Of a stretch of 9,630 nucleotides of DNA, positions 1,837-6,064 are shown one piece after another. The DNA is from Candidatus Martarchaeota archaeon. GTDB lineage: Archaea; Micrarchaeota; Micrarchaeia; Micrarchaeales; CABMGC01. A program made the position numbers and the translations under genes. Each line of letters opens with the position of its first letter. The stretch's first letter is position 1. The stretch covers positions 1 through 9,630 of the forward strand of contig JAMDBP010000039.1 of NCBI GenBank assembly GCA_023487825.1. Reading direction: 5' to 3'. The notes under the pieces are model-generated. The model was not told the DNA's origin. It worked only from the letters and a program-made list of their open reading frames with translations, and searched no databases.

Positions 1837-1856
1837 AAGAAATGTTTATATATTAT
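1837..1856 (+). promoter_or_regulatory. Putative TATA/BRE promoter of the VirB4-like operon
   Basis: AAAGAAAT precedes TTTATATATT (1845-1854), a good match to an archaeal BRE plus TATA box. Transcription would start near 1875-1880, giving a leader of about 15-25 bases before the first gene. This is the only strong promoter-like element seen ahead of the six overlapping or closely spaced genes, so one transcript from 1893 to 6064 is likely. Confidence 0.6.
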
Positions 1857-1892: not shown

Positions 1893-2165
1893 ATGGAGAT
1901 GGATGTAGACACCGGCAAACTTCATAATATCATCTTGCGGCTCTGCGGACCTGAGGAAGGGACAGCATTACTGGGATACGTGAATTCCTCTTCTGAGATA
2001 AGGCTGAGCGAGCTGATATACAGGATGATATCAGCAGGAGCAGATAGGAGAGCCATACTATCGGAGCTTCGCAGGCTAAGGATAAGCGACAGTGAGATAG
2101 CAGATGCATTCGCAGGCGCGGTAAAGAAGATAGCAACAGGTGCCAAAAATGAAAAAGCAGAGTAA
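1893..2165 (+). CDS. Unrecognised 90-residue helical protein, first gene of the operon
   Basis: I do not recognise a family. The product is soluble and predicted mostly helical, with no membrane segment, signal peptide or cysteine pair. Charged helices such as ILSELRRLRISDSEIADAF occupy the middle and the C-terminus is basic. The ATG at 1893 is two bases after GGCTGATT; the in-frame ATG at 1899 is better spaced from it and may be the true start (MDVDTGKL), shortening the protein by two residues. The 3' end overlaps the next gene by 17 bases, so the two are probably translated together. Position at the head of a VirB4-like operon suggests an accessory or regulatory part, but that is inference only. 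A coding call rests on the promoter, the overlap and the conserved reading direction. Confidence 0.7.
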   Translation: MEMDVDTGKLHNIILRLCGPEEGTALLGYVNSSSEIRLSELIYRMISAGADRRAILSELRRLRISDSEIADAFAGAVKKIATGAKNEKAE

Positions 2166-2814
2166 GTACGTGATAAGTTATAATGTCTCTATAAATGCGG
2201 TCATGACTGCTGACAAAAGCCAGATATGCGGGTATCTTTCAGGAGTAAAGGCATACAGATTCACAGAGGATAAAGGCAGCATAAACGTAATTTCAGAAGA
2301 GCAGGACAGAAAATTCATATTCAATCTTGATGAAAGTCACATCTCTGCAGAGCTTCTATCAAACACCGTACTGGAAAACCCGAAGAGGGATATTCTTCTG
2401 AAGCTTTTCGAGCTGCTGTCCAACTGCAAATGGAAATACGAGATAAAACTATCTGAAGTATACGCACATGTGTCTGAGTCACTTATCAAGAACCAGTTAA
2501 ACCACTACTCAAACATGATAAAGGAGATGAACTCCAACGAGTACTCCGATATTCTGCTCTCAAAGAGGATAATAGAGCTCAGGAAGAAGAATCTTGAACT
2601 TGAGAACGGTTGTGCAAAGCTCCGTAATAAGTTATACCAGATTGCACCTGAACTAATAATCGCAAGATCAGGGAGGGAAGCGACTATACAGGATATAATG
2701 GAATATACTGGATTGGACAAAAATGAGATACAATCTGCACTCAGCGAATTGCCTAATCTCGGATACAAGGTAATCTATTCAAAGGGAAATAAGCTGAACA
2801 TCGTGAGGACATGA
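2149..2814 (+). CDS. Coiled-coil protein with C-terminal winged-helix-like domain
   Basis: The product has 221 residues and is soluble. An N-terminal part of about 110 residues looks mixed alpha/beta. A charged heptad-like helix runs about 115-165 (KRIIELRKKNLELENG). The last 50 residues (ATIQDIMEYTGLDKNEIQSA, then LGYKVIYSKGNKLNI) have the helix-turn-helix plus beta-wing pattern of winged-helix DNA-binding domains. The ATG at 2149 is chosen because AGGTG (2138-2142) sits six bases upstream; an in-frame GTG at 2140 would add three residues. It overlaps the previous gene by 17 bases and the next by 4 (ATGA). It may be an operon regulator or a scaffold that links DNA to the membrane complex. 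Homology to a named family was not recognised. Confidence 0.75.
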   Translation: MKKQSKYVISYNVSINAVMTADKSQICGYLSGVKAYRFTEDKGSINVISEEQDRKFIFNLDESHISAELLSNTVLENPKRDILLKLFELLSNCKWKYEIKLSEVYAHVSESLIKNQLNHYSNMIKEMNSNEYSDILLSKRIIELRKKNLELENGCAKLRNKLYQIAPELIIARSGREATIQDIMEYTGLDKNEIQSALSELPNLGYKVIYSKGNKLNIVRT

Positions 2815-3383
2815 CGCAATTAATAATTCCTTACCTGTCTCAATTCTATCCTCTGTTGATAGGCATAACTATATTCGCAATACTCAAATCCCTTAACCTG
2901 CTGAAGCACAAGACACGTGTTGATCTTGATACTCCAATAGAAAGAGAGGAAAATGGATCGGATGAAATCACAAGCTTAACCGAAGTGGCATATATCAAGG
3001 ACCTTCAGGAAGACTCCGATACTGCCTATCCATTCTACCGTTATGCCTACTTTGGGATGAGCAGATTCGGCAACTATATAACAAGTTCTGCAGAGCCGCG
3101 CAAGTCCGCGCTTTCAAACATGGTCAATGATAGGCTCATAATAAATGGCATGCAATTGAGAAGAGTATCGGAAAGCGATGCATATGAAGCAGCAGCTAAA
3201 AAATTCGGAATAATAGACCTTTACAGCTGCAATTCTTTACCTGAACGAATAAAAGACCATAAAAAACTGGAGCTTGCCTTCCCTGATAATGCCTCTTTTC
3301 TGAATAAAATACTGGGCAGGGAGGAGCTCTCAGGAAGTCTTCTCATCTTAGCTGCCGGATACGATATCAGCATGGTGTCATGA
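2811..3383 (+). CDS. Membrane-anchored protein of unknown function
   Basis: The 190-residue product begins with one hydrophobic helix (about residues 8-30, ending LKSLNLLKHKTR). The basic residues just after it favour an orientation with the larger C-terminal part in the cytoplasm. The acidic linker that follows (about 37-65) leads to a folded domain rich in aromatic residues (YPFYRYAYFGMSRF) and then a helical C-terminus. I do not recognise the domain. The gene starts in an ATGA overlap with the preceding gene and ends in another overlap (ATG at 3380 inside the TGA region), so translation is coupled on both sides. The topology would suit an inner component of a secretion or DNA-transfer complex that docks on the ATPase; this is inferred from context, not from sequence similarity. 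Confidence 0.75.
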   Translation: MTQLIIPYLSQFYPLLIGITIFAILKSLNLLKHKTRVDLDTPIEREENGSDEITSLTEVAYIKDLQEDSDTAYPFYRYAYFGMSRFGNYITSSAEPRKSALSNMVNDRLIINGMQLRRVSESDAYEAAAKKFGIIDLYSCNSLPERIKDHKKLELAFPDNASFLNKILGREELSGSLLILAAGYDISMVS

Positions 3384-3577
3384 TGAACGATTTTCTGTTA
3401 TTATTCAAGAGCATAACAGAGGCTTCAGCAATCACGGTTTCTATACTGTCAATAATAATCGTATTCTTAGACGACAGCCAGGTTACCGGTGCTGGACAAA
3501 AACTCCTTATGAGGCAGATTCTGATATTCTCCATAATCATAATTCTCTCCTCTGCAGTATATATGGTGGCTCAATGA
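3380..3577 (+). CDS. Small two-helix membrane protein, VirB2/CedA1-like candidate
   Basis: The 65-residue product has two hydrophobic helices, about 12-30 (AITVSILSIIIVFL) and 47-64 (ILIFSIIIILSSAVYMVA). They are joined by a short polar, net-basic loop (DDSQVTGAGQKLLMRQ). This hairpin with a Gly-containing basic loop is the layout of VirB2/TrbC pilins and of the CedA1/TedC subunits of archaeal DNA-import machines. The family is too short and variable to be sure by eye. Start is at 3380, or at the adjacent ATG at 3383. It overlaps both neighbours by 4 bases and lies two genes upstream of a VirB4-like ATPase, as virB2 does. It could instead be a generic membrane subunit. No signal-peptide cleavage site is evident. 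Confidence 0.7.
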   Translation: MMNDFLLLFKSITEASAITVSILSIIIVFLDDSQVTGAGQKLLMRQILIFSIIIILSSAVYMVAQ

Positions 3578-3837
3578 AGTACATCCGCAACATAAACGGT
3601 ACCTGGTATGAAAAACACATGTCTCTTGCATTTGCATATGCAAACGTACAGTTCGCCATCCTCTCAATAGCTTTTTCTATCGGTATAGGGGGATATCTGA
3701 TCATCGCAGCATCTACCGCAGCTATAATCTCAATAATTTTGGCAAGGAAAAAAATTTCAGGCAGAGCCAGAACATACATGATGCTGATGCTTCCCAATCT
3801 CTTCTCCGTACTCGTATTGCTCTTAATAACAAGGTGA
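3574..3837 (+). CDS. Small multi-helix membrane protein, VirB3-like by position
   Basis: The 87-residue product has a long hydrophobic stretch (about 20-57) with a GIGGY turn that can form a helical hairpin. A basic segment (RKKISGRAR) follows, then a third hydrophobic helix (about 70-86). The first 18 residues are polar. The start overlaps the previous stop (ATGA), and the stop lies inside the ribosome binding site of the following ATPase gene. VirB3 proteins are short hairpin membrane proteins encoded directly before virB4 and bind that ATPase; position, size and topology fit, but a third helix is unusual and no VirB3 sequence motif was recognised. The functional call therefore rests on gene order. 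Confidence 0.7.
   Translation: MKYIRNINGTWYEKHMSLAFAYANVQFAILSIAFSIGIGGYLIIAASTAAIISIILARKKISGRARTYMMLMLPNLFSVLVLLLITR
3832..3837 (+). promoter_or_regulatory. Ribosome binding site of the VirB4-like gene
   Basis: AGGTGA, a full match to the archaeal consensus, lies four bases before the ATG at 3842 and includes the TGA stop of the preceding gene. It fixes the start of the ATPase and indicates reinitiation or coupled translation. Confidence 0.65.
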
Positions 3838-3841
3838 ATTA

Positions 3842-6064
3842 ATGTCGGAATTGCACTGCATAAGAGTAAATGCCATACCCTCAAATACAGACAATCTACT
3901 ACTCCTGAACGCATTCCTCAACTCAAAGTTCATGATGCTCCATGATACTTCTTCAGGCCATACCTCGATAATAACAGACTCTTCAAACGTAAGCAAGGCA
4001 ATGAATAACTTTGGCATTTCTACGGATGAATCAGATGGTGGCTGGACCACAGGAAGTCCAAAGAGGTTCAGAGTATTTGCAACTTACTTATTCGAGGACA
4101 ATACACTTCCGTATAAAAAAATGGACAGCGTGCAGGAGAGCAGGCTCTCAGACCTGTATGCTATACTAAATGGAACGGGCGCAAAGATTATAACTGCATT
4201 CTGCCCTTCTGAAATAATAAGCACAAACAGGGTAAAGAAAGAGATAGAGAAGGATATAAGCGAGATGGAGGTAAGGGCGACAAGGAATGCAAGACCGATA
4301 TTTGAGAACAGGGATTACTCTGCCCAGGTTGAGCTCTATCATAATTCAGATAAAAAAAGAGTTCTTGGCTCCGCACTCAACATGCTTAACGACATAATAA
4401 TGAGCAACGGAACATCGTACAAATTCTATGTACTGATAGAGACGCCTTCAGGTGCTGAAGAAGCCGAGAAATACATCAAAAGCAAACTTCTGGTACTGGA
4501 AGAGAGTGAAATAACTGCAAAATCCATGTCGGAACTCTATACAAGTATAGAAAAGGTGAACTGCATACCATTTTCTATGGAAAGATGCAGCAGACTTCTC
4601 TCTTTCTCTGGCAGGATAAGAAAGCTACCTGCCATAAAAACATCATTCAATACTTCAGAAGATGGTATATTCGTAGGCAGCTACATGCAGAATGGGGTAA
4701 AGAGTACAGATGAAAGACTGTTCATAATGAAAGAGTCCCTGAATCTGGGTGCCATTGTCTCAGGTCTTCCAGGTTCCGGCAAGACACTTTCTGCAAAGAG
4801 CATAATAGGCCAGATAGCAAAAGAAAAAGATACTAAAATAGTGATCATATCTCCGAATGACGAATGGAACGGCTTCGGTTATTCAAACGGCCTCGAAGTG
4901 ATAAGGATATACAATTCACAGAAGCCGATAAATTTCTTCAGATGCGACAGCACGATAAACGCGGAGAGATTCTATGAAGACCTCAGCATGCTTATAGCTT
5001 CTGCCTCAAACGCAGGTCCTTACAGAAACTCGATAGAGAAGGTGCTTCTTTCAGCATTCAACAAATCTTACAAGGATACAAAGGATCCTGATCCGAATAC
5101 AGTATACGCAAACATAGAGCTTGCTGTTATAGAGCAGCATGCAAAGGTTACAAACACCTCTGTAAAGTATACTAAGCATGGAGAAAACATCAAGGCAGCG
5201 CTGCAGAACCTACGCCTCATAATATCAAGGCCGGAGTTTGCATATAACAACGGAATAGACTTCAGATCGATAATAGAGAAAGGTGCTGTCTTTGACCTTT
5301 CAAATGTGAGCAACAACATGAAGCCATTCTTCTACGCTCTTATACTTAACCAGGTATACAGCTTTGCAGAATCATTCGATATATACGGGGATAACAAGCT
5401 GCGAATGCTTATCTGTCTTGAGGAGGCGCAGGTGGTATTCAGCAATGACATAGAATCGGCTGCGAACCAGGACCTTGAAAACAGGGTGCAGAACTTCAGG
5501 AAAAAAGGGATAGGGTTATTCCTGATAACGCATAATGCTACCGATATTAGTCCAAGGATACGCAGGCTCCTGCAGTTCAAGATGTACTTCAGACAGAGCG
5601 CAGATGTTGCAAAGTACGCTTCAAATGACCTGATATTCAACGAAGCAGAAGATACTGAGATTGTGAAGAAGATGAAGGTACTTGGACAGAGAGTATGCGC
5701 AGTGAGCTATATCGGCATGGATGGGAAGAGGAAGGTTCCTGAGACATCAGTATTCGTGGAGGTACCAGAAGTAATCGAAGAGGAACTCCATCAGGAATCG
5801 GAGATTAGCGAGAGCAGCTCCAGGCTTTCGGATACAAGATTCATAATCAAGAACAAGGAAGGAGCTGCGTTAGAAGGGATAAAAATGCAACTCTTGTATC
5901 TTGGAGAGCGCATAGCAGAATCGATATCAGACAAGGAGGGCAGTGCTGTATTTACAGGCATGCTGGTCGACAAAATATACGAATTAGCGGTGCTGGGAGA
6001 GAAGAAAAAAGACACCAAGAGATTCTCCGTTTATGGCGGAAAGAACCAAGAGCTTACTATATAG
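3842..6064 (+). CDS. VirB4/HerA-family secretion or DNA-transfer ATPase with C-terminal beta domain
   Basis: This 740-residue protein belongs to the FtsK-HerA class of P-loop motor ATPases. An N-terminal alpha/beta domain (about 1-270) resembles VirB4 (SYKFYVLIETPSGAEEAEKY near 192-211). The ATPase core follows, with Walker A GLPGSGKT (308-315), Walker B MLICLEEAQ (522-530, the LEEA form common in HerA), and the sensor strand GLFLITHNATDISPRI (558-573) with a downstream arginine-rich segment. Residues about 664-740 form an extra domain described under findings. No membrane segment is seen, so it should act at the cytoplasmic face of the membrane, driving assembly or transport. It is the last and largest gene of the operon and is preceded by two small membrane proteins, as in virB2-B3-B4. 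CedB-like DNA-import ATPase, VirB4, and HerA-type translocase are the competing identities; no nuclease NurA is nearby, which argues against HerA proper. Confidence 0.85.
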   Translation: MSELHCIRVNAIPSNTDNLLLLNAFLNSKFMMLHDTSSGHTSIITDSSNVSKAMNNFGISTDESDGGWTTGSPKRFRVFATYLFEDNTLPYKKMDSVQESRLSDLYAILNGTGAKIITAFCPSEIISTNRVKKEIEKDISEMEVRATRNARPIFENRDYSAQVELYHNSDKKRVLGSALNMLNDIIMSNGTSYKFYVLIETPSGAEEAEKYIKSKLLVLEESEITAKSMSELYTSIEKVNCIPFSMERCSRLLSFSGRIRKLPAIKTSFNTSEDGIFVGSYMQNGVKSTDERLFIMKESLNLGAIVSGLPGSGKTLSAKSIIGQIAKEKDTKIVIISPNDEWNGFGYSNGLEVIRIYNSQKPINFFRCDSTINAERFYEDLSMLIASASNAGPYRNSIEKVLLSAFNKSYKDTKDPDPNTVYANIELAVIEQHAKVTNTSVKYTKHGENIKAALQNLRLIISRPEFAYNNGIDFRSIIEKGAVFDLSNVSNNMKPFFYALILNQVYSFAESFDIYGDNKLRMLICLEEAQVVFSNDIESAANQDLENRVQNFRKKGIGLFLITHNATDISPRIRRLLQFKMYFRQSADVAKYASNDLIFNEAEDTEIVKKMKVLGQRVCAVSYIGMDGKRKVPETSVFVEVPEVIEEELHQESEISESSSRLSDTRFIIKNKEGAALEGIKMQLLYLGERIAESISDKEGSAVFTGMLVDKIYELAVLGEKKKDTKRFSVYGGKNQELTI

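Follow-up and report, generated by a model that had tools for sequence, protein, structure and literature searches.

A six-gene Micrarchaeota operon as half of a probable Ced/Ted-like type IV secretion system, split within one of its two ATPase genes

Conjugation-derived, chromosomal systems for DNA exchange are described in archaea from the Sulfolobales, the Thermoproteales and their kin. The Ced system of the Sulfolobales consists of CedA, CedA1, CedA2 and CedB, together with CedD and CedE; both it and the Ups pili are damage-induced, according to part of the account in PMC11868833. In the Ted system of the Thermoproteales (TedC, TedA, TedB) a seven-helix gene comes after a signal-peptide pilin gene, and a VirB4-like ATPase is encoded close by, as set out in a portion of PMC9905601. 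HerA, ParA and Rad50 genes also lie near Ted loci. No account of such a system in Micrarchaeota was found in open-licence PMC papers (subscription papers and preprints being outside this scope). Here we analyse six genes, G1 to G6, which occupy positions 1893 to 6064 of a 9,630-nucleotide stretch from Candidatus Martarchaeota archaeon, a member of the Micrarchaeota (contig JAMDBP010000039.1, assembly GCA_023487825.1); this whole stretch is called the window. The six genes are one half of an operon that has broken in two, and the system to which they belong is probably a chromosomal, Ced/Ted-like type IV secretion system (T4SS) of Micrarchaeota, most likely one that moves DNA across the membrane.

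G1–G6 are six intact open reading frames (ORFs), all on the plus strand. The successive overlaps from G1 to G5 are 17, 4, 4 and 4 bases, and a gap of 4 bases separates G5 from G6. G1 (1893–2165) encodes 90 residues. G2 (2149–2814; 221 residues) starts at the ATG at 2149, an alternative GTG at 2140 being possible, and comprises an N-terminal domain, a coiled-coil-like stretch and a C-terminal winged-helix-like segment; its weak matches in PHROGs and PADLOC are to GajB (1e-4) and to a replication O-like family (0.016). A single hydrophobic segment, an N-terminal membrane helix, is seen in G3 (2811–3383; 190 residues), while G4 (3380–3577; 65 residues) has two, forming a predicted membrane hairpin, and G5 (3574–3837; 87 residues) has two to three. 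G5 lies directly 5' of G6 (3842–6064; 740 residues) and may be called VirB3-like by position and topology only. The first-pass annotation of this DNA had noticed a two-helix protein and a second small membrane protein before the ATPase, as these segments bear out. All six genes are open in the window and in three related loci (L001, L003 and L004), in which the gene order is kept. The ratio of nonsynonymous to synonymous substitution rates (dN/dS) is about 0.1–0.3 among the window, L001 and L003; for the window against L001 it is 0.10 for G1, 0.13 for G2, 0.21 for both G3 and G4, 0.27 for G5 and 0.11 for G6. Pairs with the more distant L005 give higher ratios, up to 0.68 (G4), many of the dS values being saturated. 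The six genes make up a genuine, intact operon, and purifying selection acts on them. A search of Rfam at gathering thresholds gave no match, and no tRNA was found.

G6 is the ATPase of the operon. Its Walker A motif is GLPGSGKT, in which G308, P310, G311, G313 and K314 are invariant in 40 of 40 aligned rows, the window included. The protein matches Pfam DUF87 (3e-6) and, in NCBIfam, the VirB4-like CD1110 (1e-8) and CedD (4e-8), with scores for the latter two under the curated cut-offs (32 bits against 600 for CedD). The reading frames, the Walker A motif and the family matches together confirm the initial description of six same-direction genes with 4- and 17-base overlaps, ending in a VirB4/HerA-family ATPase. 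In a Foldseek search with the predicted structure, full-length TrwK/VirB4 took ranks 1–4; the structural alignment with TrwK covers residues 1–658, of which 537 are aligned at a root-mean-square deviation of 15.1 Å. On this model, the ATPase domain of G6 has the predicted fold of the VirB4 type. G6 also has an N-terminal domain, and a confidently predicted C-terminal beta domain (residues ~660–740; window positions 5820–6061) lies beyond the VirB4 match. The named homologues of G6 among the matches listed come from Micrarchaeota or from metagenome-assembled genomes labelled Marsarchaeota.

The relatives of G6 place the six genes in a longer operon. A scan of species genomes gave 100 confirmed relatives, 80 of which were kept as loci in which genes were called and profiles built. 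Complete loci carry four extra genes, A, B, C and D, 5' of the G2 homologue, and G2–G6 correspond to genes E–I. Genes A–E or A–F stand on the same strand no more than 7.5 kb upstream of I in 34 of the 61 testable loci (19 of the 80, with less than 5 kb of sequence upstream of I, were left out of this count); the others are of the window type (3), have none of A–F within 7.5 kb upstream (21) or are partial (3). From the 80 loci we picked 45 in which I is not clearly linked to the complete gene set; of their genomes, 38 encode B and 39 have a match to E, some of the weaker E matches being perhaps the paralogue from the second cluster described below. Another split, downstream of E, is seen in 25 of these 45 genomes: the starts of B and E lie within about 3.5 kb on one contig, with I apart. 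An even draw of 196 genomes from the phylum contains 76 with I, 93 with B and 72 with both (Fisher p 7e-29). Conservation of the small genes beside the ATPase, on which the first-pass annotation had made its reading depend, holds by sequence in L001, L003, L004 and L005, but further out only 16 of 81 loci match the profile of G and only 14 that of H, in keeping with fast divergence; elsewhere G and H are recognised only from size, helices and position.

Two further observations concern the surroundings of these loci. A downstream gene was called at 80 loci, and in 18 of them, including L005 (7288–8496), the gene next to I on its 3' side belongs to the Nre family, whose members are repair proteins; Nre_N and Nre_C Pfam domains were confirmed in the two downstream genes tested. 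The same genomes can also carry a second, larger T4SS-like cluster (L157, L158 and L159, in genomes G003, G006 and G002), which contains a pilin-like gene, five to six multi-helix genes that are B-like by profile, two C-like genes, an E-like gene, a D-like ATPase of 501–504 residues and a separate protein of about 100 residues resembling the C-terminal domain of D.

Gene A encodes about 125 residues with a signal-like start and two helices, and lies directly 5' of B. Its matches in the relatives to TrbC (0.004), T4SS_pilin (0.0015) and TrwL (0.15) are below threshold. The product of B, about 350 residues long, usually has 6–7 helices (predicted range 5–8) and had no profile match in the scans made. 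We take A as a candidate VirB2-like pilin and B as a candidate 6–7-helix channel; since A is the better candidate, the suggestion that G4 is VirB2 loses its support. C (about 240 residues) has a two-helix start followed by a soluble part, and D (about 375 residues) is an ATPase of the VirB4/HerA superfamily. The best NCBIfam match of D is CedB in two of the three proteins tested, the L005 protein scoring 68 bits against a CedB cut-off of 700. The ATPase domains of D and I are homologous (hhalign 98 percent, E 2.5e-13). A kinship of C with the N-terminal domain of I was considered too, and hhalign did not find it. Compared with PDB sequence profiles, B, C and E matched no named T4SS partner; the C-terminus of E is winged helix-turn-helix-like (match to 7bhy, 8e-4). 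In PHROGs and PADLOC, A and C weakly match families of unknown function (0.008 and 0.036), and G6 and D have generic ATPase matches only.

The VirB4-type fold predicted for G6, together with the pilin candidate, the channel candidate and the additional ATPase of the longer operon, supports the type IV secretion-like nature proposed in the first-pass annotation. The alternative that G6 and D are HerA-type translocases for DNA repair or defence, with the small genes incidental, is very unlikely: the operon is conserved together with membrane genes and with the pilin and channel candidates, and the closest structures to G6 (Foldseek ranks 1–4) are of full-length TrwK/VirB4. NurA was found in none of the seven draft genomes, in a search whose control was positive in 7 of 14 genomes. 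This absence disfavours a HerA–NurA complex, and it agrees with the first-pass annotation, which had named grouping with HerA helicases next to NurA in relatives as a refutation of its reading.

The break in the window's clade lies inside gene D. G1, which had been taken for an unrelated or unrecognised protein, matches the D profile with 61 bits over positions 287–371 of 374; G1 thus encodes, as a stand-alone gene, what in relatives is the C-terminal domain of D, written D(C). The genomes of L002, L003, L004 and L006 carry A-B-C and the first 283–287 residues of D, written D(N), at another locus among other genes; in the L001 genome B is truncated by the contig end. When placed on the undivided D of L005, the end of D(N) and the start of G1 adjoin each other at a point where this protein already has an internal Met, and 29 of the 37 D rows have a Met aligned there. 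The six fission rows lie on one side of a single branch (99), with L005 adjacent, in a tree of 99 G6 proteins that was built with a quick method and includes database rows inside the clade whose fission status is not known. On these sequence comparisons, the adjoining ends and the grouping on one branch are explained by one fission at the boundary between the ATPase and the C-terminal domain of D. The operon broke in two inside D, and the window contains the D(C)-E-F-G-H-I half, in which D(C) is G1.

The absence of a VirB6-like channel, a relaxase and VirD4, to which the first-pass annotation had pointed, is true of what is visible in the window; a 6–7-helix protein is, however, encoded elsewhere in genomes of the clade, and no search for a relaxase or VirD4 was made. 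The operon is not a minimal machine, the window being half of a nine-gene set, and the idea that novel partners replace the channel is not supported, a candidate for it being encoded at another locus. It might be asked whether an operon parted from A–C and most of D is the decaying remnant of a broken machine. This we consider highly improbable, in view of six genes that are open in the window, L001, L003 and L004, of low dN/dS among the window, L001 and L003, of A-B-C-D(N) being intact in four genomes of the clade, and of a conserved promoter with an operator-like pair of sites.

Carriage by a mobile element (a plasmid, a virus or an integrative and conjugative element) has the smallest chance of the explanations considered. 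VirB4-type ATPases are typical of conjugative elements, and D has weak matches in seven plasmid records (22–33 percent identity over partial length), one of them from Pyrobaculum; yet no relative of G6 was found in 72,556 plasmid records or in viral contigs, and none of B in plasmids. The operon is flanked by SMC on one side and a digeranylgeranyl reductase–RpoK pair on the other, both on the opposite strand, and the reductase and RpoK likewise flank L006.

Upstream of G1 lies a TATA-box-like element, TTTATATA (1845–1852, plus strand), which we take to be the TATA box. It is identical in the window, L001, L003 and L004, and the approximately 30 bases 3' of it are nearly so. In full operons a palindrome, TTTACTTAAGTAAA, recurs upstream of A. 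The best two sites are 19–20 bp apart in 25 of 32 regions upstream of A, these being the same regions from which the matrix was built, with none from the window's clade. In the window the matrix picks positions 1846 and 1866 as the top two. Operator-like site 1 (1846–1865), the best with 17.7 bits, overlaps the TATA-like element, which supplies part of its score; site 2 (1866–1885), second best with 13.0 bits, is a degenerate TTTACTTAAGTAAA at a distance of 20 bp from site 1. When the window was shuffled 500 times by a first-order Markov model, such a pair never arose and an equally high maximum appeared once.

Across 49 loci outside the training set, the window included, the system's promoter windows make up 5.8 percent of positions and contain 14 of the 19 sites of at least 18 bits (p 5e-14); these windows (900 nt upstream of I, 160 nt upstream of A or E and 130 nt upstream of G1) were set post hoc, after an earlier automatic test had come out non-significant. 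That test gave p 0.11 overall, and 7/41 against 2/275 at 18 bits or more; its first-gene calls were faulty, with small genes missed and starts mis-set, for example in the window and L001. A 14-base form of the pattern matches 79 of the 196 phylum genomes and its backward reading 39, and an exact match stands before A in five of five genomes of the window's clade. The 108 distinct sites listed comprise 31 before A, 5 before I, 27 before an ATPase gene of the T2SSE family and 45 elsewhere, in a tally from partial tables that used 77 of 94 rows for B, 23 of 78 for I and 67 of 77 for the pilus ATPase, omitting the weaker matches to B and to the ATPase and the greater part of those to I; the promoter windows of A, I and the T2SSE ATPase make up 0.034 percent of bases. 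Both half-operon promoters carry forms of TTTACTTAAGTAAA, the form in the window being a degenerate tandem pair. Two operator-pattern sites, in L204 and L206, lie directly 5' of IS605/TnpB-like genes, probably by chance or insertion.

The ATPase next to the palindrome matches T2SSE in all five proteins tested (1e-18 to 1e-27). Seven such loci were inspected (L233–L239), and the operon layout is clear in five, L235–L239, where the ATPase gene is followed by genes for two polytopic proteins and several short one-helix proteins. In the one polytopic pair tested, one protein matches T2SSF (0.008) and the other had no match; two tested one-helix proteins match the class III signal peptide model, at 3.6e-5 (above the cut-off) and 3e-4 (below it). 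Judged by these matches, the ATPase, polytopic and prepilin-like genes are a predicted type IV pilus operon. The pilus ATPase was found in 74 of the 196 phylum genomes. Among genomes G001–G007 an ortholog is present in G007 alone, the best matches in G001–G006 being other T2SSE genes (~1e-47 to 1e-48); the window's clade is without the co-marked pilus operon. A conserved protein of about 110 residues is encoded divergently to the pilus ATPase in 12 of 17 retrieved loci with a confirmed ATPase (for example L236, 1931–2260, minus strand), and in L037 (6600–6971, minus strand) and L065 it lies next to the T4SS half-operon's operator. It shows weak helix-turn-helix matches in Pfam (0.045 and 0.096) in one of three proteins tested, is probably a winged-helix protein and is a candidate regulator.

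For the activity of the system, DNA import is our best guess by analogy, because of the likeness of D to CedB, the parallel of the co-marked pilus to Ups and the Nre gene beside I. A would form a VirB2-like pilus and B a channel like VirB6 or CedA, while C would anchor ATPase D. G1 may dock back onto D(N), so that D would be a two-chain ATPase in the window's clade. D and I would work jointly as VirB4-like motors (C–D and H–I), in the manner proposed for CedB and CedD, with E–H anchoring or regulating I, and a common regulator would switch both half-operons together. The cargo would be DNA from other cells or from the host, for repair or scavenging.

The main rival reading gives this split T4SS-like machine another task: it could export proteins, or attach to and act on the host. 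DPANN archaea cultivated so far are ectosymbionts (in part of PMC11291902), a VirB4-type secretion system has been proposed for host subjugation in nanohaloarchaea (in an excerpt of PMC10266531), and T4SS components are described as essential to epibiotic growth in Saccharimonadia (in a portion of PMC12102498); moreover, no relaxase was noticed in the window, where no search aimed at relaxases was made. Such a role is unlikely, if by no means negligible, as the best NCBIfam match of D is the DNA-import ATPase CedB in two of three cases, the operator also marks a pilus operon in relatives, a pairing that parallels the aggregation pili found alongside Ced, and an Nre-family gene is next downstream of I in 18 of 80 loci. 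No secreted effector was recognised in the operon either, though no dedicated effector search was made.

Returning to DNA transfer, we tentatively suggest that a DNA-exchange regulon may exist in Micrarchaeota, in which a two-motor Ced-like T4SS and, in many lineages, an Ups-like pilus would be controlled by one regulator of about 110 residues through TTTACTTAAGTAAA. The split T4SS would still be one functional unit, since each fragment would have retained or acquired the operator and the motor would work as two chains; uptake of host or sibling DNA is possible. If DNA transfer by this system is true, chromosomal conjugation-derived DNA exchange in archaea extends beyond the Sulfolobales, the Thermoproteales and their kin, is conserved in a good part of a DPANN phylum, and offers cells with very small genomes a route to gene exchange and repair. 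The clean cut of D at a domain boundary offers a natural test of which parts of VirB4-superfamily ATPases have to be covalently linked, and the operator provides a concrete, testable regulon with a candidate regulator.

Like the system described here, Ced is chromosomal. It shares with it a pair of paralogous VirB4/HerA-type ATPases, CedB and CedD there (in part of PMC11868833) and D and I here, as well as a 6–7-helix membrane protein with a small pilin candidate, and the marking of the A, I and pilus-operon promoters with TTTACTTAAGTAAA across Micrarchaeota recalls the Ups and Ced systems of the Sulfolobales. In contrast, D and G6 are too divergent for the CedB and CedD cut-offs, D begins about 30 residues before its ATPase part, without the first ~250 residues of CedB, the C-terminal domain of D is a separate gene in the window's clade, and no named counterparts of E–H were found here. 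The operator also differs: here a palindrome lies in the stretch from the TATA-like element to the start codon, whereas in Sulfolobus the ups motif is a hexamer that is not palindromic and precedes the core promoter, and ced loci are without that motif in the portion of PMC5817253 drawn on here. In the order of its genes the system resembles Ted, with A and B in the same order and D two genes further; it differs in having two ATPases, against the single named TedB, and in the split operon and gene fission of the window's clade. The likeness to TrwK/VirB4 of R388 and to VirB-type T4SS lies in the predicted fold of G6; G6 has an extra C-terminal beta domain, and no match to VirB5 or VirB7–VirB10 appeared in the profile scans made. 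VirB4-type ATPases occur in other ultra-small, host-associated cells, in the VirB4-bearing giant proteins of nanohaloarchaea and in Patescibacterial T4SS (in parts of PMC10266531 and PMC12102498), with which this operon contrasts in its component set and in having no giant adhesin. The system is a variant of the chromosomal conjugation-derived systems, placed outside Ced by the model cut-offs.

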